In this document: positions 1 through 12,446 of the stretch, one piece after another
How the letters are laid out: each line of letters begins with the position of its first letter
How positions within the stretch are numbered: position 1 is the stretch's first letter
From: an uncultured Atopobiaceae bacterium
GTDB lineage: Bacteria; Actinomycetota; Coriobacteriia; Coriobacteriales; Atopobiaceae
Reading direction: 5' to 3'
Assembly (NCBI GenBank): GCA_944321005.1
Contig: CALUJT010000036.1
Coordinates: 1 to 12,446, forward strand
DNA: 12,446 nucleotides
Notes under the pieces: generated by a model
Told to the model about the DNA's origin: nothing
Seen by the model: only the letters and a program-made list of their open reading frames with translations
Database searches by the model: none
Program-made: the position numbers and the translations under genes

Positions 1-1557
1 CTCCGCGCGCTGCTCACCTGCAAGTCCAAGTACGGCGTCTGCCAGAAGTGCTACGGCTGGGACCTCTCCACGCGTCGCCCGGTCAACATCGGCACGGCCG
101 TGGGCGTCATCGCCGCCCAGTCCATCGGCGAGCCGGGCACCCAGCTCACGATGCGCACCATTCACTCCGGCGGCGTCGCTGGCGCTGACGACATCACGCA
201 GGGCCTCCCCACGGTCGCCCGCATGTTCGACGTCGTCGGCAACGTCAACGAGAAGATTCTCGGCCGCGAGGCCGACCTCGCGCCCGTGTCTGGCCTGCTT
301 CGCATCATGCCCGAGCAGACCGAGTACCTGCTGCGCATCCTGGACACCGACGACCCGAGCCGCATCATCGAGGAGTGGCGCGTCCCGGCCTCCGTCCGCT
401 TCATGCCCGACGTGGAGGACGGCGTGGAGGTCCGTGCCGGCGACCAGATCACCCGCGGCTTCGTCAACTTCCGCAAGCTGCGCAAGCTCACGGACATCGA
501 GTCGACGATGCACACCTTCGTCGAGTCCGTCAAGGACGTCTACACCTCCCAGGGCGTCGACCTCAACGACAAGCACATCGAGGTCATCGCGCGCCAGATG
601 CTGCGCCGCGTCCAGGTGACCAACCCGGGCGACTCCCAGTACCTGCTGGGTCAGTACGTCGACCGCTACGTCTTCGCGGACACCGTGCGCAACGTGACCC
701 TCGCCGGCGGCACCCCGCCCGAGGCCGAGCCCGTCATCCTCGGCACCCTCAAGGTCGCGAGCTCCATCGACTCCTGGCTCTCCAGCGCGTCGTTCATCCG
801 CACCGCCGGCGTTCTCACCGAGGCCGCCATCGAGGGTGACGTCGACCACCTGCTCGATCTCAAGTCTAACGTCATCGTGGGCAAGCAGATCCCCGCGGGC
901 ACCGGTCTGGAGGCCTACAACAACGTGGAGCTCACCTACCACGGCACCAAGATCGACGGCCCCACGTCGCCCCTGGCCAAGAGCCTGCCCGAGTGGGCGC
1001 CCGACGAGCTCAAGACCATCGAGGAGCAGCTGCCCAAGCAGCTCGACTGGGTGGGCGACGACTACGGCTTCGGCGGCGTGTACTCCAAGAACGGCCGCAC
1101 GCTCTCGAGCGAGGACGCCAAGCTCTACCTCTTTGACGACCTCGGCGTCTCGCAGCGCTGGACCAACAAGTTCAGCGAGGTGGGCATCGAGACGGTGGGC
1201 GACCTCATCGGCAAGACCGAGGACGACCTGCTGCGCATCGACGGCATCGGCGCCAAGGCGATCGAGGAGCTCCGCGACGGCCTCGAGGCCCGCGGCCTGC
1301 TCTACATCCTCGAGCCCGATGACTCCGAGGCGGACAGCGAGGACCTCTCCCAGCTCCTGAACATGGTCTTCTCGCCGGATGCCGACGCCGACATCATGCT
1401 CGGCACCGCCGCGCCGTCCACTCACCACTTCGACGACGAGCTCATCGGCGGCTCCGACTCCTCCGCGAGCGACTCCGACGTCATCAACGAGGACCTTGGC
1501 TCCCTCGATGACCTGCTCTCCCAGGTCGTTCGCCAGGAGGCCGGGGACGAGGAGTAG
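1..1557 (+). CDS. rpoC: RNA polymerase subunit beta' (C-terminal part, 5' end outside window)
   Basis: The reading frame is open from base 1 to TAG at 1555-1557, giving 518 visible residues. The first residues carry the last three ligands of the C-terminal zinc site (Cys7-x6-Cys14-x2-Cys17). The invariant run [19 protein letters not shown] and the trigger loop follow at about residues 34-60. There is no large insertion in the trigger loop, unlike the enterobacterial enzyme. The segment around [12 protein letters not shown] and the LTEAAIEG...[13 protein letters not shown] block complete the conserved core, which ends near base 918. About 212 further residues (919-1554) do not belong to the ordinary beta' core. 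They contain a helix-hairpin-helix resembling the alpha-subunit C-terminal domain and an acidic tail. A strong terminator starts 33 nt after the stop, so this is the natural C-terminus. rpoB would be expected upstream. Identity is certain; the role of the extension is unknown. Confidence 0.98.
1123..1299 (+). other. Alpha-CTD-like helix-hairpin-helix domain fused to beta'
   Basis: Codons 375-433 of the visible beta' fragment align without gaps to the C-terminal domain of RNA polymerase alpha as I remember it from E. coli and B. subtilis. Shared landmarks are S-x-R-x-x-N near the start, G-I-x-T-V-x-x-L, KTE-x-D, I-G-x-K and EEL...L-E-x-x-GL. Of the E. coli residues known to contact UP-element DNA, the equivalents of R265, N268, G296, K298 and E302 are present; C269 and S299 are replaced by Lys and Ala. 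Helix-hairpin-helix folds are common, so alpha-CTD homology is an inference from the gapless match rather than proof. Confidence 0.7.
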
Positions 1558-2009: not shown

Positions 2010-3170
2010 ATGGAGACCATCATCTGTGACATATCCGCATTTCTGTACTGGCGCGTTCCGCCCGTCGTCCGTCTGCTCGTGAGCGCGGCGGACGACGACC
2101 CCCTCCTTGCCAATCTGGTGAGCCCCGAGGGGCTTGCCGAGCTGCGCGCGGGCTGCGCCGAGCTCCCCCTGGCTCGTGCGTGCGCATCCTCCGGCATTCA
2201 CTGGCGGGCCGCCGGGGAGGCGTCGCGTGCGATTCGCTCGTCGGCGGCACTTCTCTCCGTGGGCATGGAGGGACCCGTGGACGTGCTGGTGACAAGGCGC
2301 GAGCAGACTCGGCGGGCAACCGTGGTGAGGCCTCGTCTCTGGTCTGCCGGCGTTTCCCAGGAGGAGCTGAGCCGGGTATCGGAGGATCTCAGCGTGGTCT
2401 CTCCGGAGTTTGCCCTGCTACAGCTTGCACGGAGGGCAAGCCTTGTGAGGACGGTGCTCCTGGCTTCCGAACTCTGCGGCTCCTTTGCCGTCTATACGGC
2501 TCCGGAGTGCGTGCGGGAGGTTCTCCAGCAGCTCGTGGAGGGCAACGTGCTTCCCAGGATGGGCGGCTGGGACCCCTGCCTCGACCGCGAGGGGAAGCTC
2601 ACGGACCTCTGGTCGAGAAAGCCCCTGGCCACTCCCGCCGACCTGCGACGCATTGCCGAGCAGTCTCCTTCGTCGGGTGGGCGCGAGAGGCTGCTCGAGG
2701 CCGTTCGGCTGGTGAACGCGGGCGCCGCGTCGCCATTTGAGGCAAAGGCGGGTGTCATCCTCGGTTTTTCTCGCAGGAGAGGAGGGGAGGGTCAGGGCGG
2801 GTTCGTTCACAACCAGCGCATCGCGCTCGCCCCCGAGGCACGAGCGCTTGCCCGCCGATTCAGCTGTTACTGTGACCTCTACTGGAGCGAGGGCTTGGAT
2901 CTCGAGTGCCAGAGCAGGCTCGCGCACGACATCGGATCGAGTTTCCTCTCGGACTCCGACAGGACGGCCGCCCTCAGGCTGATGGGGGTGGAGGTCCTGC
3001 CGGTGACCTACCGACAGCTCAAGAACGAGGCTCGTACTCAGACGCTCTCCAAGATGGTGGCGGAGAAGAGGGGCGTTTCCTGGGCGCCGCCGACGGAGAG
3101 GCAGCGTGTGGCGGGCCAGCGCCTTAGAGGCGAGGTCCTTGTTGACTGGGAGGGCCTCCCGTTTGTCTGA
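2010..3170 (+). CDS. Unrecognised accessory protein with possible restriction-endonuclease-like C-terminal half
   Basis: This 386-residue soluble protein has no signal peptide or membrane segment and no gene name I can assign. The start at ATG 2010 is supported by an in-frame TGA at 1995 and by the N-terminal pattern ICDISAFLYWR, which I recall from uncharacterised coriobacterial proteins. The middle contains SPEFALLQLA (131-140). A SPFEAK motif (241-246) precedes the C-terminal part, where CDLYW (288-292), LDLECQS (296-302), His306, SDSDR (314-318) and a Gly-Val-x-Val-x-x-x-Thr strand (326-333) follow in order. This order resembles DUF559/Vsr-like folds found with AbiEi-type proteins. The usual acidic residue after the Glu is Gln here (E299-C-Q301), so catalysis is doubtful. 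Arginine codons AGG and AGA are frequent, unlike the neighbouring fab genes. The gene stands alone between the two inverted elements A and B, which suggests accessory origin. That the gene is real is likely; its function is unknown. Confidence 0.8.
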   Translation: METIICDISAFLYWRVPPVVRLLVSAADDDPLLANLVSPEGLAELRAGCAELPLARACASSGIHWRAAGEASRAIRSSAALLSVGMEGPVDVLVTRREQTRRATVVRPRLWSAGVSQEELSRVSEDLSVVSPEFALLQLARRASLVRTVLLASELCGSFAVYTAPECVREVLQQLVEGNVLPRMGGWDPCLDREGKLTDLWSRKPLATPADLRRIAEQSPSSGGRERLLEAVRLVNAGAASPFEAKAGVILGFSRRRGGEGQGGFVHNQRIALAPEARALARRFSCYCDLYWSEGLDLECQSRLAHDIGSSFLSDSDRTAALRLMGVEVLPVTYRQLKNEARTQTLSKMVAEKRGVSWAPPTERQRVAGQRLRGEVLVDWEGLPFV

Positions 3171-3199
3171 TGCGGGGTGACCTGGGGAGGCACGGCAGA

Positions 3200-3332
3200 G
3201 CGAACTCCGAGTTTTCTGTACATTGAAGGGGCGTCGGAGTGGGCGAGAAGAACAAGCAGCTCGTCTACCTGGGCAAATGCAGGAGCGCTTAATGTGCGCC
3301 CGTGCGCAGTGTACAGAAAAGTCAGAGTTCGC
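3200..3332 (-). repeat. Copy B of the ~132 bp terminal-inverted-repeat element, opposite to copy A
   Basis: The left end (3203-3225) and right end (3307-3329) are inverted repeats matching at 20 of 23 positions, extended by GCG/CGC on the outside. The 27 bp core at 3241-3267 is the reverse complement of copy A's core with one mismatch, so this copy is flipped. It sits in the convergent gap between the unrecognised gene and birA and overlaps the last codons of birA. The long inverted ends could also act as a two-way transcription barrier, although no T run of terminator type follows either arm. Confidence 0.75.
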
Positions 3333-4266: not shown

Positions 4267-4307
4267 TCGAATCGACCACGGCAACTACGACGACAGGGGG
4301 CGTGAAG

Positions 4308-5267
4308 ATGGGATTCCGCATTCTGGGCACGGGCTCCGCGCTTCCGGCGCGCTCGGTGACCAATGACGACCTGTCCGAGTTCCTTGATACCTCTGACGAG
4401 TGGATCTTCCCGCGCACCGGCATCAGGAGCCGTCGCATCTGCGCGGACGAGACCCTCGACGACCTCTCCGTCGAGGCGTGCCGCCTGGCCCTCGAGGCCG
4501 CCGGCGTCACGCCCGACCAGCTCGACCTCATCATCTGCTCCACCACGAGCGGCGACCACCTCATTCCCGCCGAGGCCTGCGCCATCGCGGAGCGCCTGGG
4601 CGCGAGCTGCCCCGCCTTCGACGTCTCCGCCGCCTGCGCGGGCTTCGTCTTCGCGCTCGACGTGGCGGACGGCTACTTCGCGCGCGGCCGCGCGGAGCGC
4701 GTGCTCGTGGTGGCCGCCGAGAAGATGAGCCGCCTCGTTGACTGGGAGGACCGCGCCACGTGCGTCCTCTTCGGCGACGGGGCCGCCGCGGCCGTGCTGG
4801 GCGCGGGCGGGGAGAGCCCGCTCGCCATGCGCCTCGAGACCGAGCCCTCGGTGGACATCCTCCACGTGCCGGGGATCGGCGGCAGCTCGCCCTATGACAG
4901 GACCGAGCACCCCGCCAACGTACTCGCCATGGAGGGCCGTCGCGTCTTCAAGTTTGGCGTGAACGCCATCTGCTCCTCGGTGAGCGCCCTCTGCGAGGAG
5001 GCGGGCGTCTCTGTCGAGGACATCGACCACTTTGTCTTCCACCAGGCCAACGAGCGCATCCTCTCCTCGGCCGTGTCCCGCCTCGGCATCGATCCCGCCA
5101 GGGTGGCGCGCGTCCTCGAGGAGACGGGCAACATCTCGAGCGCCTGCATACCCCTTGCCCTCGACAGGCTCGCCCGCTCGGGCGAGCTCGCATCCGGCCA
5201 GCTCGTCGTTCTCGTGGGCTTTGGCGCCGGGCTCGACACGGGGGCCTGCCTGCTCCGCTGGGAGTAG
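4308..5267 (+). CDS. fabH: Beta-ketoacyl-ACP synthase III
   Basis: This enzyme starts fatty-acid chains by condensing an acyl-CoA primer with malonyl-ACP. The 319-residue protein keeps the complete Cys-His-Asn triad: Cys110 in SAACAGF, His245 in FHQAN and Asn275 in GNISSA. The TSDEWI and RTGI motifs near residues 28-39 are typical of the family. The start at ATG 4308 has AGGGGG 7 nt upstream. A GTG six bases earlier would leave only 1 nt of spacing and is less likely. It is the first gene of the operon, as in streptococci and lactococci, but no fabT-like regulator precedes it. Primer choice (acetyl or branched acyl) cannot be read from the sequence. Confidence 0.97.
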   Translation: MGFRILGTGSALPARSVTNDDLSEFLDTSDEWIFPRTGIRSRRICADETLDDLSVEACRLALEAAGVTPDQLDLIICSTTSGDHLIPAEACAIAERLGASCPAFDVSAACAGFVFALDVADGYFARGRAERVLVVAAEKMSRLVDWEDRATCVLFGDGAAAAVLGAGGESPLAMRLETEPSVDILHVPGIGGSSPYDRTEHPANVLAMEGRRVFKFGVNAICSSVSALCEEAGVSVEDIDHFVFHQANERILSSAVSRLGIDPARVARVLEETGNISSACIPLALDRLARSGELASGQLVVLVGFGAGLDTGACLLRWE

Positions 5268-5287
5268 GCCGAGAAACGTCCATCGGC

Positions 5288-5303
5288 GCGCCCGACCGGG
5301 CGC
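5288..5303 (+). promoter_or_regulatory. Small GC hairpin between fabH and acpP
   Basis: GCGCCC-GACC-GGGCGC forms a 6 bp stem with a 4-nt loop in the 57-nt fabH-acpP gap, just before the acpP Shine-Dalgarno site (AAGGAG). There is no T run, so it is not a terminator. It could be an RNA-processing or stability element that raises acpP over fabH. That function is inference. Confidence 0.35.
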
Positions 5304-5324
5304 ACGGAGAAAAGGAGAAGAACC

Positions 5325-5561
5325 ATGGCAGATCAGAGCACCTTCGACCGCGTGTGCGCCATCGTCCGCGAACAGGGCGGCCTCGACGACGTCGAGCTGA
5401 CCGCCGAGACCACGCTCGCCGAGGTCGGCCTGGACAGCCTGGCCACCGTCGAGGCCGTCATGGCCTGCGAGGACGAGTTCGGCATCGAGATCGACGCCGA
5501 GTCCAACCCCACCACCATCGGCGAGTTCGTCGAGATGGTCGACTCCCTCCTGGAGAACTAG
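5325..5561 (+). CDS. acpP: Acyl carrier protein
   Basis: This 78-residue, strongly acidic protein carries growing acyl chains on a phosphopantetheine arm. The attachment serine is Ser38 in the GLDSL motif, followed by helix II residues (VEAVMACEDEFGIEI) that bind the fatty-acid enzymes. Length is normal for the family. An AGGAG site lies just upstream of ATG 5325. It sits between fabH and fabK, and its stop is 2 nt before the fabK start. Its place in this operon makes it the fatty-acid carrier rather than a polyketide or peptide carrier. Confidence 0.97.
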   Translation: MADQSTFDRVCAIVREQGGLDDVELTAETTLAEVGLDSLATVEAVMACEDEFGIEIDAESNPTTIGEFVEMVDSLLEN

Positions 5562-5563
5562 TC

Positions 5564-6508
5564 ATGCTGCGCACCCCCATCTGCGACCTTCTCGGCATCG
5601 AGAAGCCCGTCTTCCAGGGCGGGATGGCCTGGATCGCCGACGCCTCCCTCGCCGCGGCCGTTTCCGAGGCCGGCGGCCTGGGAGTCATCGCGGCCATGAA
5701 CGCCAACGCCGACTGGCTGCGCGACCAGATCCACGAGCTTCGCGAGAAGACCGACAAGCCCTTCGGCGTGAACGTCATGCTCATGAGCCCGTTTGCCGAC
5801 GAGGTCGCCCAGGTCGTCATCGACGAGCGCGTCCCCGTGGTGATCACGGGCGCGGGCAACCCCACCAAGTACATGAAGGCGTGGAACGCCGCGGGCATCA
5901 AGGTCATCCCCGTGGTTGCCTCCGTGGCCATGGCCAGGCTCGTCCAGCGCGCCGGTGCCGTGGCCGTGGTGGCCGAGGGCACCGAGTCCGGCGGCCACAT
6001 CGGCGAGACCACCACGATGGCGCTCGTCCCGCAGGTCGTCGACGCCGTGAAGATCCCCGTCATCGCCGCGGGCGGCATCGCCGACGGCCGGGGCTTCGCC
6101 GCCGCCCTCATGCTCGGCGCCGTGGGGGTCCAGGTGGGGACGCGCTTCCTCGTGGCCAACGAGTGCACCGTGTCCGACAAGTACAAGGACATGGTCATCA
6201 AGGCCAACGACATCGCCACGCGCGCGACCGGCCGCTCCACCGGCCACCCGGTCCGCGCCCTCAAGAACCCCTTCTCGAACAAGTACGCCCAGATGGAGTC
6301 CGCGGGCGCCTCCGAGGAGGAGCTCAACGCGCTGGGCACCGGCGCCCTGCGCAAGGCGGCCAAGGAGGGCGACTACGAGAACGGCTCGTTCCTCTGCGGC
6401 CAGATCGCCGGCATGGTGCACGAGCGCCAGAGCGCGCTCGAGATCGTGGACGACCTCGTCAACGGGGCCGAGAAGGTCCTGTCTGGAGCGATGCAATGGG
6501 TAAGGTAG
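5564..6508 (+). CDS. fabK: Enoyl-ACP reductase II (FMN-dependent)
   Basis: This enzyme performs the last step of each elongation round, reducing trans-2-enoyl-ACP with NAD(P)H through FMN. The 314-residue TIM-barrel protein has the N-terminal PVFQGGMAWI segment, ESGGHIG with His145 (141-147), the phosphate-binding GGIADGRG (170-177) and QVGTRF (190-195). The nitronate monooxygenase family is close in sequence, but the position inside a fab operon decides for FabK. The same frame is open upstream, inside acpP; ATG 5564 is chosen because GGAG lies 8 nt before it and the conserved domain starts there. Its 3' end overlaps fabD by 13 nt. No FabI is visible, and FabK enzymes are known to resist triclosan. 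Confidence 0.95.
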   Translation: MLRTPICDLLGIEKPVFQGGMAWIADASLAAAVSEAGGLGVIAAMNANADWLRDQIHELREKTDKPFGVNVMLMSPFADEVAQVVIDERVPVVITGAGNPTKYMKAWNAAGIKVIPVVASVAMARLVQRAGAVAVVAEGTESGGHIGETTTMALVPQVVDAVKIPVIAAGGIADGRGFAAALMLGAVGVQVGTRFLVANECTVSDKYKDMVIKANDIATRATGRSTGHPVRALKNPFSNKYAQMESAGASEEELNALGTGALRKAAKEGDYENGSFLCGQIAGMVHERQSALEIVDDLVNGAEKVLSGAMQWVR

Positions 6509-7431
6509 CCTTCCTCTTTGCCGGCCAGGGCGCCCAGCACCCCGGCATGTGCGCAGACCTCATCGAGTCCGAGGCCGCGGCCAGGGCCGTCTTCGACGCC
6601 GCCGACGCCGTGCGTCCCGGCACCACCGAGCAGTGCCTCTCCGGCACCAAGGAGGAGCTCTCTCAGACCATCAACACCCAGCCCTGCGTCTTCGCGGCGG
6701 ACCTCGCGTGCGCCCGCGCCCTCGAGGCGCGCGGCGTGACGCCGGACGTTGTCGCGGGCTTCTCGCTCGGCGAGGTGGCCGCGCTCACGTTTGCCGGCGC
6801 CTACACCGACGAGCGGGGCTTCGAGCTCGTGTGCCGCCGCGCCGAGCTTATGGCCGACGCCGCGGCCGCCAACCCCGGCGCCATGCGTGCCGTCGTGAAG
6901 CTCGACGCCGCCACCGTCGAGCGCCTCGCCGCCGAGGCGGGCGAGGCCTGGCCCGTCAACTACAACAGCCCCCTCCAGACCGTCGTCGCCGGGACCGCCG
7001 AGGCGTGCGAGAGCCTCGACGCCCTCGTGAAGGAGGCCGGGGGGCGCGCGATGAAGGTCGCCGTCTCGGGCGCCTTCCACAGCCCGTTCATGGCGGACGC
7101 CGAGCGGGGCCTCACGGAGTACCTCGCCGAGGGCCACGAGCCCGGTGAGACCCGCGTACCCGTGCTCGCCAACCGCACGAGCGAGCCGTACCCGGCGGAC
7201 GCCTCCGGGCGCGCCGCCCTTCTCGCCAGCCAGGTGGCCAATCCCGTGCAGTGGGTGCGGACCCTGCAGAACATGGCGGCCGACGGCGTGGACACCTTCA
7301 TCGAGGTGGGCCCGGGCAAGACCCTCACGGGTCTCGTGTCGCGCACCCTCGAGGGCGTGACCGCGCTGCCGTGCGAGACGGTCGAGCAGCTCGAGGCCGT
7401 CCTCGCCGCCCTCTCCGAGAGAGGGGAGTAG
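6496..7431 (+). CDS. fabD: Malonyl-CoA:ACP transacylase
   Basis: The protein transfers malonyl from CoA to acyl carrier protein. The 311-residue product has GQGAQ (10-14), the nucleophile Ser90 in GFSLGE, Arg114/Arg115 for carboxylate binding and catalytic His195 in GAFHSPF. The start at ATG 6496 lies within the last codons of fabK in another frame (13-nt overlap), with GGAG 7 nt upstream, which suggests translational coupling. It is followed after 2 nt by fabG. Length and motifs are normal. Confidence 0.97.
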   Translation: MGKVAFLFAGQGAQHPGMCADLIESEAAARAVFDAADAVRPGTTEQCLSGTKEELSQTINTQPCVFAADLACARALEARGVTPDVVAGFSLGEVAALTFAGAYTDERGFELVCRRAELMADAAAANPGAMRAVVKLDAATVERLAAEAGEAWPVNYNSPLQTVVAGTAEACESLDALVKEAGGRAMKVAVSGAFHSPFMADAERGLTEYLAEGHEPGETRVPVLANRTSEPYPADASGRAALLASQVANPVQWVRTLQNMAADGVDTFIEVGPGKTLTGLVSRTLEGVTALPCETVEQLEAVLAALSERGE

Positions 7432-7433
7432 CA

Positions 7434-8204
7434 ATGGCCGAGAAGATCGGGACCATCGAGCGCGACGCCTCCCGTCGCGTGGCCCTCGTCACGGGCGCCT
7501 CGCGCGGAATCGGGCGCGCCGTCGCGGAGGGGCTCGCCGCCGACGGCTTTGACCTCGCCCTCGTCTATGCGGGCAACGAGGCTGCGGCCGCCGAGGCCGT
7601 GGCCGCCTGCGAGGCCGCCGGCGCCACCGCGCGCGCCTACCGCTGCGACGTCTCCGACCCCGAGGCCGTGAAGCAGGTCGTCGACGCGGTGATGGCGGAC
7701 TTCGGCAGCGTCTGGGCCCTCGTCAACAACGCGGGCGTCACGCGCGACGGCCTGCTCGTCCGCATGTCCGACGAGGACTTCGCGCGCGTCATCGACGTCA
7801 ACCTCAAGGGCGCCTTCCACACCATCCGCGCCCTCTCGCGTGCCTTCATGCGCCAGCGCGGAGGCCGCATCGTGAACATGGCCTCCGTCGTGGGCCTCAT
7901 GGGCAACGCCGGCCAGGCCAACTACGCGGCCTCCAAGGCCGGCCTCATCGGCCTCACCAAGTCCGTCGCGCGCGAGCTCGCCCCGCGCGGGGTCACCGTC
8001 AACGCCATCGCGCCGGGCTTCGTCGAGACCGACATGACGGCCGTCCTCTCCGAGAGCGTGGTCGAGGGCTACGAGAGGCAGATCCCCCTCGGGCGCCTCG
8101 CGAGCGCGGAGGAGATCTCCGCCGTGGCCCGCTTCCTCGTGAGCGACGCCGCGTCCTACGTAACCGGGGAGGTCATCCGCGTCGACGGTGGCATGGCGAT
8201 GTAA
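7434..8204 (+). CDS. fabG: 3-oxoacyl-ACP reductase
   Basis: This short-chain dehydrogenase reduces beta-ketoacyl-ACP with NADPH. The 256-residue protein shows the cofactor loop TGASRGIG (20-27), NNAG (98-101) and the catalytic tetrad Asn123, Ser151, Tyr164 and Lys168. The IAPGFVETDM segment follows at 192-201. An N-terminal lead of about 13 residues precedes the first beta strand, slightly longer than usual. ATG 7434 has a GGGGAG site and lies 2 nt after the fabD stop, so the start is well supported. The downstream gap to fabF is unusually long for this operon and holds a REPIN-like repeat. Confidence 0.97.
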   Translation: MAEKIGTIERDASRRVALVTGASRGIGRAVAEGLAADGFDLALVYAGNEAAAAEAVAACEAAGATARAYRCDVSDPEAVKQVVDAVMADFGSVWALVNNAGVTRDGLLVRMSDEDFARVIDVNLKGAFHTIRALSRAFMRQRGGRIVNMASVVGLMGNAGQANYAASKAGLIGLTKSVARELAPRGVTVNAIAPGFVETDMTAVLSESVVEGYERQIPLGRLASAEEISAVARFLVSDAASYVTGEVIRVDGGMAM

Positions 8205-8211
8205 CTGGCAC

Positions 8212-8283
8212 GCGTGCAAAAGGGACAGTCACTTTTGCACGCTCACATGACAGACGTGCAAAAGTGACTGTCCCTTTTGCACG
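8212..8283 (+). repeat. REPIN-like perfect inverted repeat between fabG and fabF
   Basis: Two 29 bp arms (8212-8240 and 8255-8283) are exact reverse complements, separated by 14 nt. Each arm is itself a partial palindrome: CGTGCAAAAG and CTTTTGCACG flank the 9-nt centre GGACAGTCA (or its complement). The same arms in the same order recur at 10448-10529. Two inverted palindromic units around a short spacer fit the REPIN pattern, whose REP units are mobilised by RAYT transposases; none is encoded here. The transcript would form a very stable 29 bp stem ending 4 nt before the fabF Shine-Dalgarno site. Confidence 0.88.
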
Positions 8284-8297
8284 CGATGGGAGTTGAG

Positions 8298-9545
8298 ATG
8301 GAGCACAGGGTAGCAATCACCGGCATCGGCGCCGTCACGCCGCTCGGCAACACCGCCAAGGAGACCTGGGAGGCCATGGTGGCGGGCAGGTGCGGCATCG
8401 GCCCCATTACCCACTTCGACACCGAGAACTTCAAGGTCAAGGTCGCGGCCGAGGTCAAGGACTTCGACGGCGCCGCCCTTCTCGGCAAGCAGGAGGCCGC
8501 GCACCTGGACCTCTTTTCCCAGTACGCGCTCGTGGCCTCCGACGAGGCGATGGCCGACTCCGGCCTCGACGCCGAGGACGCCGTCGACCGCGAGCGCCTG
8601 GGCGTCTACGTGGGCTCGGGCGTGGGCGGCATCAACGCCTTCGCGGACAACGTCCACGTCATCGCCGACCGCGGGCCGCGTCGCGCGTCCCCCTTCATGA
8701 TCACGATGATGATCGCCAACATGGCAACCGGCAACATCGCCATTCGCCACAAGGCCCTCGGCCCCACGCTCCCCGTCGTGACCGCGTGCGCCACCTCCGC
8801 CCACGCCGTGGGCGAGGCCTTCCGCGCGATCAAGCACGGCTACGCCGACGCCATCCTCGCCGGCGGCGCCGAGGCCGCCATCATGCCGGAGTCCATCGCG
8901 GGCTTCACCAGCTGCCGCGCCCTCACCACCAACCCCGACCCCGCCACCGCGTGCCGCCCGTTCGACGCGGAGCGCAACGGCTTCGTCATGGGCGAGGGCG
9001 CCTGCGTGCTCGTCCTCGAGGAGTGGGAGCACGCAGTCGCGCGCGGCGCCCACATCTACGCCGAGCTCGTGGGCTACGGCAACACCGACGACGCCCATCA
9101 CATCACGAGCCCCGACCCCGAGGCCGCGGGCATCACCCGCGCCATCAGGCAGGCCGTGGAGGAGGGCGGCGTGAAGCCCGAGGAGGGCCTCTACATCAAC
9201 GCGCACGGCACCTCAACCAAGCTCAACGACGCCTCCGAGACGCTCGGGTTCAAGCAGGCGCTCGGCGAGAAGAACGCGCGTGCGGCACACGTCTCCTCCA
9301 CCAAGTCCATGACCGGCCACATGATCGGCGCCACGGGCGCCGTGGAGGCCATGGCCTGCGCCCTCGCCCTCGAGAACGGCATCGTGCCGCCCACGATCAA
9401 CTACCACACGCCCGACCCGGCGTGCGATCTCGACTACACGCCCAACGAGGCCGTGGAGTGCGAGCTCACCTGGGCCCTCTCCACCAACCTCGGCTTCGGC
9501 GGACACAATGCGGCGCTCGCCCTGCGCGCCGTGGAGAGGAGCTAA
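8298..9545 (+). CDS. fabF: Beta-ketoacyl-ACP synthase II
   Basis: The enzyme elongates acyl-ACP with malonyl-ACP. The 415-residue protein has the Cys-His-His triad of the family: Cys164 in TACATS, His303 in NAHGTST and His341 in KSMTGHMIGA, with Lys336. The glycine-rich NLGFGGHNA motif lies near the C-terminus. ATG 8298 is chosen because GGGAG lies 5 nt upstream and the protein then begins MEHRVAITGIG as in relatives. ATG 8286 and a TTG at 8277 are in frame but lack a ribosome site, and the TTG is inside the repeat. It is the only elongating ketosynthase here, so it may serve both FabB and FabF roles. accB starts 2 nt after its stop. Confidence 0.97.
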   Translation: MEHRVAITGIGAVTPLGNTAKETWEAMVAGRCGIGPITHFDTENFKVKVAAEVKDFDGAALLGKQEAAHLDLFSQYALVASDEAMADSGLDAEDAVDRERLGVYVGSGVGGINAFADNVHVIADRGPRRASPFMITMMIANMATGNIAIRHKALGPTLPVVTACATSAHAVGEAFRAIKHGYADAILAGGAEAAIMPESIAGFTSCRALTTNPDPATACRPFDAERNGFVMGEGACVLVLEEWEHAVARGAHIYAELVGYGNTDDAHHITSPDPEAAGITRAIRQAVEEGGVKPEEGLYINAHGTSTKLNDASETLGFKQALGEKNARAAHVSSTKSMTGHMIGATGAVEAMACALALENGIVPPTINYHTPDPACDLDYTPNEAVECELTWALSTNLGFGGHNAALALRAVERS

Positions 9546-9547
9546 CC

Positions 9548-10012
9548 ATGGACTCTGCCAAGATTTCCGAGATCGCCGACATCATGAGGAGTCACGGCCT
9601 CACGCGCGTGCGCGTGGAGGACCCGGACGGCTCGGCCGTCGAGCTCGAGTGCGGCGGCGCGCCCTCGGCTGCCCCGGCGCCCGCGCCGCTCCCCGCGCCC
9701 GTCGCTCCGGCGCCGGCCCCCGCGCCTGCGCCCGCGGCTCCCGCCCCCGCCGGCGACGAGCCCCTCGACATGTCCCACACCACTGCGGTTCGCGCCCCCA
9801 TGGTCGGTGTCTTCTACGCCGCCCCCGCCCCCGGTGCCGAGCCCTTCGTGCAGGTGGGCTCCAAGGTCAAGAAGGGCGACACCCTCTGCGTCATCGAGGC
9901 GATGAAGGTCATGAACGAGGTGACCGCGGAGGAGGACGGCGAGGTCGTGGACATCTGCGTGAAGGACGGCGACCTCGTCGAGTACGGCTGCTGCCTCATG
10001 AAGATCTACTAG
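9548..10012 (+). CDS. accB: Biotin carboxyl carrier protein of acetyl-CoA carboxylase
   Basis: This 154-residue protein carries CO2 on biotin between the carboxylase and carboxyltransferase. A short N-terminal domain (1-36) is joined by a Pro/Ala-rich flexible linker (about 38-69) to a biotinyl domain. The acceptor is Lys120 in IEAMKVMNE. The linker is encoded by near-repetitive GC-rich sequence at 9662-9751. The start ATG 9548 has AGGAG 7 nt upstream and is 2 nt after the fabF stop. It is the expected substrate of the BirA ligase encoded at 3322-4068. Confidence 0.97.
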   Translation: MDSAKISEIADIMRSHGLTRVRVEDPDGSAVELECGGAPSAAPAPAPLPAPVAPAPAPAPAPAAPAPAGDEPLDMSHTTAVRAPMVGVFYAAPAPGAEPFVQVGSKVKKGDTLCVIEAMKVMNEVTAEEDGEVVDICVKDGDLVEYGCCLMKIY

Positions 10013-10025
10013 GGGAGGGCGTCGC

Positions 10026-10439
10026 ATGAACAAGGAGGAGCTCAAGAGCCTGCTGCCGCACCGCGAGCCCATGCTCCTGCTCGACGAGGCGGAGGTCGTC
10101 GACGGCGAGGCTCACGGCAAGATCACCATCACGGGGGACGAGTTCTTCGTCCGGGGCCACTTCCCCGGCAACCCCATCGTCCCCGGGGTCATCCAGTGCG
10201 AGATGCTCGCGCAGAACTGCTGCGTCCTTCTTGCCAACGACCTCGCCGCCAAGGGCGCCACGCCCTTCTACACGAGCCTCGACAAGGTGCGCTTCAAGCA
10301 CCCCGTGCGTCCTGGCGACACCATCGAGCTCACCTGCCGCATCACCAAGAGCCGCGGCCCCTTCCGCTTTGCCACGGGAGAGGCGCGCGTCAACGGGGAG
10401 CTCTGCTGCCAGGCGGAGATGTCCTTCGCGCTCATGTAG
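10026..10439 (+). CDS. fabZ: 3-hydroxyacyl-ACP dehydratase
   Basis: The enzyme removes water from beta-hydroxyacyl-ACP. The 137-residue hot-dog-fold protein has PHREPMLLLD at the start, catalytic His45 in GHFPGNPIVPG and Glu59 in IQCEMLAQ. Length is usual for FabZ and too short for FabA-type extensions. A GGGGAGGG site precedes ATG 10026, 13 nt after the accB stop. No FabA, FabM or second FabZ is seen in the window, so how unsaturated fatty acids are made is not shown here. A REPIN-like repeat follows 8 nt after its stop. Confidence 0.96.
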   Translation: MNKEELKSLLPHREPMLLLDEAEVVDGEAHGKITITGDEFFVRGHFPGNPIVPGVIQCEMLAQNCCVLLANDLAAKGATPFYTSLDKVRFKHPVRPGDTIELTCRITKSRGPFRFATGEARVNGELCCQAEMSFALM

Positions 10440-10447
10440 CGGCCGGC

Positions 10448-10529
10448 CGTGCAAAAGGGACAGTCACTTTTGCACGGCTCTTGGCATTTGACGAGAGCGG
10501 CGTGCAAAAGTGACTGTCCCTTTTGCACG
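10448..10529 (+). repeat. Second REPIN-like perfect inverted repeat, between fabZ and accC
   Basis: The arms (10448-10476 and 10501-10529) are identical to those at 8212-8283 and in the same order, but the 24-nt spacer differs in length and sequence. The outermost bases add one more pair (C/G). It fills most of the 108-nt fabZ-accC gap and ends 7 nt before the accC Shine-Dalgarno site. It carries no T run of terminator type, so the transcript probably continues through it. Confidence 0.88.
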
Positions 10530-10547
10530 GTGCGCCAGGAGGCAACG

Positions 10548-11877
<1,330 letters not shown>

Positions 11878-11885
<8 letters not shown>

Positions 11886-12446
11886 GCGGGAGAAGAGCGT
11901 CAACGCGCTCGAGGGTCCGGTCACGGAGATCGCCGCCGAGTTCCCGGAGCGCCACGTCCTCGTCAAGTGCCCCGGCTGCAAGCGCGTCATCGACCAGGCA
12001 AAGTTTGCCGAGAACCTCGACGTCTGCCCGCGCTGCGGGCGTCACCTGCGCGTCTCCGGCCGCAAGCGCATGCGCATCACCGTGGACGCGGGGAGCTTCG
12101 AGGAGTGGGACGCCAACCTTGCCGCCACGGACTTCCTTGACTTCCCCGGCTACGCCGAGAAGCTCGCGGACGCCCGCGAGAAGAGCCACGAGAACGACGC
12201 GGTGGTCTGCGGCGTCGGCACGATAGGGGGCCACAAGGCCGCGCTCTTCTTCATGAACGCCGACTTCATGATGGGCTCCATGGGCTCGGTGGTGGGAGAG
12301 AAGATCTGCCGCACCTTCGAGCGCGCCACGGAGCTCGGCCTGCCCGTCGTGGGCTTCACCGTCTCCGGCGGCGCCCGCATGCAGGAGGGCACGACCTCCC
12401 TCATGCAGATGGCCAAGGTCTCCGCGGCGGTGCGCCGCCACTCCGA
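11878..12446 (+). CDS. accD: Acetyl-CoA carboxylase carboxyltransferase beta subunit (3' end outside window)
   Basis: This subunit, with AccA, moves CO2 from carboxybiotin to acetyl-CoA. The 189 visible residues start at ATG 11878, inside the last codons of accC. A zinc ribbon follows with Cys31-x2-Cys34 and Cys50-x2-Cys53. The crotonase-type carboxyltransferase core shows GSMGSVVGEK (133-142) and SGGARMQEG (163-171), where the backbone forms oxyanion holes. Together these identify AccD rather than a propionyl-CoA carboxyltransferase. The remaining roughly 90-100 residues, and probably accA, lie beyond the window edge. Confidence 0.96.

Follow-up and report, generated by a model that had tools for sequence, protein, structure and literature searches.

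The 12,446-nucleotide stretch of DNA analysed here (the window), from an uncultured Atopobiaceae bacterium, begins within rpoC, the gene for the beta' subunit of RNA polymerase (RNAP). Judging by sequence comparisons, the beta' of this bacterium and its relatives carries a real, additional homologue of the C-terminal domain (CTD) of the alpha subunit, RpoA. The window starts at base 1 of contig C36, inside the gene, so that rpoC is truncated on its 5' side; the plus-strand frame at 1-1554 (518 residues) is open from the contig start and closes at a TAG stop codon (1555-1557). Residues 2-307 match the rpoC model TIGR02386, whose position 1146 of 1147 is reached at residue 307, and PF04998 also matches this C-terminal part of the core (residues 1-307, 1..921, plus strand). 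Because TIGR02386 runs out at residue 307, we place the end of the beta' core near base 921. A first-pass annotation, made from the letters alone, had put it near base 918 and had counted about 212 further codons to a clean terminator; both estimates hold, with 212 codons between the core and the stop.

Identity of the additional domain

The extra domain lies at 1123-1302 (plus strand), as located by a profile built from relatives. Pfam's RNA_pol_A_CTD (PF03118) aligns its positions 16-66 to residues 379-429 free of gaps (34.8 bits, E = 1.4e-8, cut-off 23.8), in agreement with the ungapped match to alpha-CTD that the first-pass annotation had drawn over 1123-1299, and NCBIfam alpha-subunit models also match the residues covered by PF03118. 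PF03118 scores range from 34.8 to 39.9 bits, and all 25 members chosen from the window's class, Coriobacteriia, have a match of their own. The possibility that the domain is instead a generic helix-hairpin-helix protein was rejected: HHH_5 (PF14520) gives 19.8-23.7 bits on the window, under its cut-off of 27, whereas PF03118 is above its own, and alpha CTDs score well above other helix-hairpin-helix proteins. Among the latter, the C-terminal repeats of NusA, which likewise belong to the transcription machinery, give a distant match of 29.6 bits, but this is far weaker than the matches to alpha CTDs, and NusA is a separate factor.

The RpoC domain resembles the classic alpha-CTD in its profile match, its gap-free alignment, its flexible tether and perhaps, going by a weak model, its fold. 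It differs in its carrier, being found in one copy on each beta' and not behind the alpha N-terminal domain. RpoA of the window genome is encoded by a separate gene and retains an intact CTD, which answers a check proposed in the first-pass annotation; the RpoC domain is therefore additional, and a transfer of the CTD from RpoA to RpoC with loss from RpoA was rejected for this genome. Across the class, 145 of 149 genomes give a PF03118 match of the strength expected from RpoA (E 4e-24 or better); among the remaining genomes, G035 has a weak match alone and three have none. In total 146 of the 149 have PF03118 matches, with two or three in 106, and the five second matches among those listed lie in frames of 1,418-1,484 residues.

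Where the gene is uncut by a contig end, Coriobacteriia RpoC proteins are domain-bearing, stop-free frames of 1,411-1,600 residues among the matches listed. An assembly error or frameshift was rejected since these relatives carry the same stop-free frame and every chosen member matches PF03118 alone. Named organisms closely related to the source of the window belong to Olsenella, Thermophilibacter and Atopobium (Atopobiaceae, Coriobacteriia).

At the level of database entries the fusion is already marked. NF011498 (PRK14906) matches RpoC residues 1-511, which include the domain and most of the tail behind it, up to model position 1442 of 1459; its 872.7 bits fall under the cut-off of 1437 because the contig starts inside rpoC. 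The text of this entry names beta' alone, although we take an older title to have been of the beta'/alpha-domain-fusion kind. Pfam's precomputed domains include PF03118 on 120 listed RpoC proteins, the best 120 of 2,114 at E <= 0.001. The first-pass annotation knew of no description of such a fusion, and we found none in open-licence literature as judged by titles and the beginnings of abstracts; thus the arrangement is apparently not studied, as far as these searches go, but it is not absent from Pfam. The BEAN and HABAS insertions in beta and beta' are likewise additions to the large subunits that are confined to certain lineages, but they are different domains, and a term search of the paper on them found neither Coriobacteri- nor CTD, C-terminal extension or helix-hairpin-helix (PMC11515920).

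Distribution in Coriobacteriia and an alternative module

We read 101 RpoC ends, namely that of the window and those of 100 further genomes (the class sample has 148 besides the window's own), locating RpoC by its core. These cover 19 of the 22 sampled families (f14, f21 and f22 yielded no RpoC end). The alpha-CTD-like domain is present in 79 ends and lacking in 21, and one (L101) is cut by a contig end before the domain. Three of the 79 score below 5 bits with a hidden Markov model built from RpoA and were retained by alignment (L127, L131 and L097, the last being cut inside the domain). Restriction to the window's genus was rejected, given that 16 of the 19 families have the domain.

The 21 ends without the domain belong to families f5 (14), f16 (6) and f17 (1), and carry in its place a Cys/His module of zinc type (for example L108:838-1365). 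Six cysteines are found in all 21; 20 ends contain two copies of the Cys/His pattern and the remaining one has a single copy. The pattern is absent from the 80 other RpoC ends, and no end among the 101 has both modules. When four zinc-type ends were scanned with Pfam, zf-TRM13 was over its cut-off in all four and DUF5763 in two. Among 39 proteins close to an f5 end, three are named Anaerosomatales and others just Coriobacteriia or Coriobacteriales. The two kinds of module are unrelated in sequence, but they occupy the same place in RpoC, follow a like linker segment and never occur together, and for these reasons we conclude that the two are alternatives at the end of beta'.

This exchange, affecting 21 of 101 ends, together with the zf-TRM13 and DUF5763 matches, suggests one alternative function, namely a general grip on nucleic acid used in elongation or DNA wrapping, with the zinc module of sister lineages doing the same job. 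The hairpin of the RpoC domain has also drifted toward the generic G-I-G-x-K-A pattern. However, the equivalent of R265 in Escherichia coli alpha is kept, and the domain fits alpha CTDs better than generic helix-hairpin-helix domains; we regard this alternative as unlikely.

Conservation of the putative DNA-contacting residues

R265 is the main DNA residue of E. coli alpha, and we take the DNA-contacting positions of the alpha-CTD to number seven, including R265, N268, N294, G296, K298, S299 and E302. The five residues named in the first-pass annotation are all present in the window, as R386 (R265; 1156..1158, plus strand), N389 (N268), G417 (G296), K419 (K298) and E423 (E302). The last three lie in the aligned segment G-A-K-A-I-E-E (1249..1269, plus strand), in which an alanine takes the place of the RpoA residue S299. 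In the class, the R265 equivalent is kept in 79 of 79 RpoC domains, those of G296 and E302 in 78 of 78 each and that of K298 in 69 of 78. N268 is kept in just 46 of 79. The identity of the domain as an alpha-CTD homologue survives both refuting conditions of the first-pass annotation, better matches to unrelated helix-hairpin-helix proteins and a lack of conservation at the DNA-facing residues.

When every family is given the same weight, the ten most conserved positions of the domain include six of the seven, while N268 falls outside the first 18. Mean entropy is 0.43 bits over the seven versus 1.84 over other polar positions (p = 0.0008; p = 0.006 without G294 and G296). Two of the six highly conserved positions, G294 and A299, differ from the RpoA residue. 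R265 lies outside the generic hairpin pattern by our own reading. Invariance among the individually named loci is partly built in, since a sequence pattern lying within the domain was used to find them and they are the best 80 of 324; the class counts come from 79 rows drawn independently of that pattern.

The mean column identity of the RpoC domain between families is 59%, and this divergence, with the other module in three families, would fit a captured passenger, retained by drift or for stability and having no role in transcription. Against such a passenger stand the presence of the domain in 16 of 19 families, the invariance of R265, and codon constraint among near relatives, in which the ratio of nonsynonymous to synonymous substitution rates is ~0.05 (81 sequences and 290 pairs, the relatives being picked by likeness). 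We consider it very improbable.

Linker and acidic tail

The core and the domain are joined by a linker of ~71 residues with a net charge of -6 (910..1122, plus strand), recognised by its sequence and in the low-confidence model. It includes an aligned 17-residue segment (985..1035, plus strand) with the pattern LP-x-[W/F/Y]-AP-x-x-L, of the LPxFAPxEL kind, which is found in both alpha-CTD and zinc-type RpoC ends and is fainter in f4, f6 and f7.

In the window's order the domain, unlike that of RpoA, is not C-terminal. An acidic tail of 83 residues (1306..1554, plus strand), seen in sequence and alignment, follows it in the window and includes two short motifs conserved in the alignments: one of 14 residues (1339..1380, plus strand), a helix in the weak model, and one of 15 (1486..1530, plus strand), partly helical there. 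Within the class sample, 84-100 residues behind the domain are unique to the families of this order (f1-f3). These residues, their charge in the window (net -23) and the two motifs could indicate an autoinhibited grip, in which the tail covers the DNA face until a signal or partner releases it. However, the structure model is weak, and the 13 other domain-bearing families have 0-24 residues behind the domain (mostly 0-9, up to 24 in f6), so that we give this idea very little credence.

Occurrence outside the class

A profile scan of 396 genomes surveyed the window's phylum. The second look covered 42 of the 47 non-class genomes with at least two matches (G248, G267, G297, G306 and G357 were left out, as were all single-match genomes). 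Outside the class 40 RpoC ends were read, representing 35 families out of 71. The domain is present in two actinobacterial families, in all four ends of f36 and all three of f47. The 33 other non-class families are represented by one RpoC end each, and none of these has it. A further protein search for relatives (2 proteins) did not widen this range.

In a domain tree with 36 of the 79 class rows, built on as few as 59 columns and with a bootstrap that had not settled, all 43 RpoC rows group together with weak support (86/86), the 36 class domains all fall to the same side of a branch (99/97), and class rows of f11 and f20 are nearest the RpoA side (83/74). On a tree of the RpoC core, the alpha-CTD label must change four times, a count that takes in the split inside the class; well-supported branches force at least three of these changes. 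The RpoC domains may have arisen by repeated gain or by a single gain followed by losses.

A separate alpha-CTD-like domain (53.6 bits) was seen in a large actinobacterial genome, at G170:C1:5622513-5622692. It resides in an open frame of 681 residues, which is more than an RpoA would have and less than an RpoC.

A possible third alpha-CTD on the polymerase

In structures of assembled RNAP the C-terminus of beta' adjoins omega, for which a gene is present, and alpha's own linker is shorter than the ~71 residues found in the window. We see about an even chance that the RpoC domain functions as a third alpha-CTD, tethered near omega and contacting upstream promoter DNA or activators. It would then be a third alpha-CTD-like hand beside the two on alpha, held on a flexible linker behind the beta' core. 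The linker could reach DNA upstream of the promoter, where the domain might contact that DNA via R386 and the G-x-G-x-K hairpin, or be held in place by activators, and such contact could help to recruit or position the polymerase. The original omega fusion work is reportedly that of Dove and Hochschild in 1998. By way of precedent, a dCas9-omega fusion 80-81 base pairs upstream caused a ~8-fold rise in transcription in E. coli without rpoZ (PMC8096225).

Several observations weigh against a third alpha-CTD of this kind. The dCas9-omega fusion gave no significant activation in the parental strain, which has its own omega (PMC8096225). Besides the frequent loss of N268, two positions that the first-pass annotation did not mention are replaced in the window, N294 by G415 and S299 by A420. 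In the class all 79 RpoC domains have G at the first position and 77 of 78 have A at the second, against N and S, respectively, in all 46 RpoA sequences. Conservation of G294, G296 and A299 is moreover partly structural, because a generic helix-hairpin-helix would keep them. The domain has a net charge of -6 versus -2 for the CTD of its own RpoA, and the tail behind it adds the strong negative charge given above. Structural matches agree with an alpha-CTD but come from a weak AlphaFold model, whose mean predicted local distance difference test score is 55.5, with blocks of the domain at 58-69; only one Foldseek match has E <= 0.001. Outside the class, the three f47 domains (L157, L158 and L159, from G319, G377 and G189) all have Y for R265 while keeping K298, S299 and E302, whereas the class has R265 and A at S299 instead; the four f36 domains keep R265 and N268 and have N, S, G and G at the K298 position, in an alignment free of gaps from G296. 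G294 alone is no bar to an alpha-CTD role, since the hairpin of Thermus RpoA reads PGIG in the alignment and also has G there. As far as sequences can tell, acidity, G294 and A299 nevertheless speak against plain equivalence with the E. coli alpha-CTD.

The same features suggest that the alpha-CTD fold might instead be a protein dock, a contact surface for a transcription factor, sigma, NusA or another regulator with no grip on DNA. Its acidity exceeds that of RpoA CTDs, N294 and S299 are replaced, and a new contact could be formed by W at position 266 (73 of 79 class domains) and K at position 269 (72 of 79), both lacking in RpoA. In addition, one of the structural neighbours, PDB 1z3e, shows the alpha CTD in complex with Spx. 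This alternative deserves some weight but seems improbable in view of the invariant R265 and the six DNA-contacting positions among the ten most conserved.

Should the RpoC domain indeed be a third promoter hand, promoter models based on E. coli or Mycobacterium would misjudge these organisms. Bacterial RNAP subunit design is usually regarded as fixed save for insertions, and yet alpha's regulatory domain is borne on beta' in most sampled families of Coriobacteriia, a class in which common gut and oral bacteria are found, with Olsenella and Atopobium among the named relatives. A broader proposal, which we offer tentatively and think rather doubtful as a whole, is that the beta' C-terminus beside omega is an exchangeable dock for nucleic-acid-binding modules: the polymerase of Coriobacteriia would have three alpha-CTD-type hands and a promoter or activator geometry of no studied RNAP, sister lineages would use zinc modules, and two other actinobacterial lineages would have gained such hands independently. 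The swap with a zinc-type module offers a clean handle on what the beta' end is for.

Other features of the window

Downstream of rpoC, at 4302-12444, the translations of successive genes read as FabH, FabK, FabD, FabG, FabF, AccB, FabZ, AccC and AccD. Paired palindromes with the sequence GTGCAAAAGGGACAGTCACTTTTGCACG occur at 8211-8285 and 10447-10530, amounting to four copies in two gene gaps, with arms that are 90-100% complementary; they could be terminators, repeat elements or binding sites. A reading frame at 2010-3170 is flanked by 79-base inverted copies (82%) at 1703-1781 and 3199-3277, which have a core like TGTACAGAAAAGTCAGAGTT.
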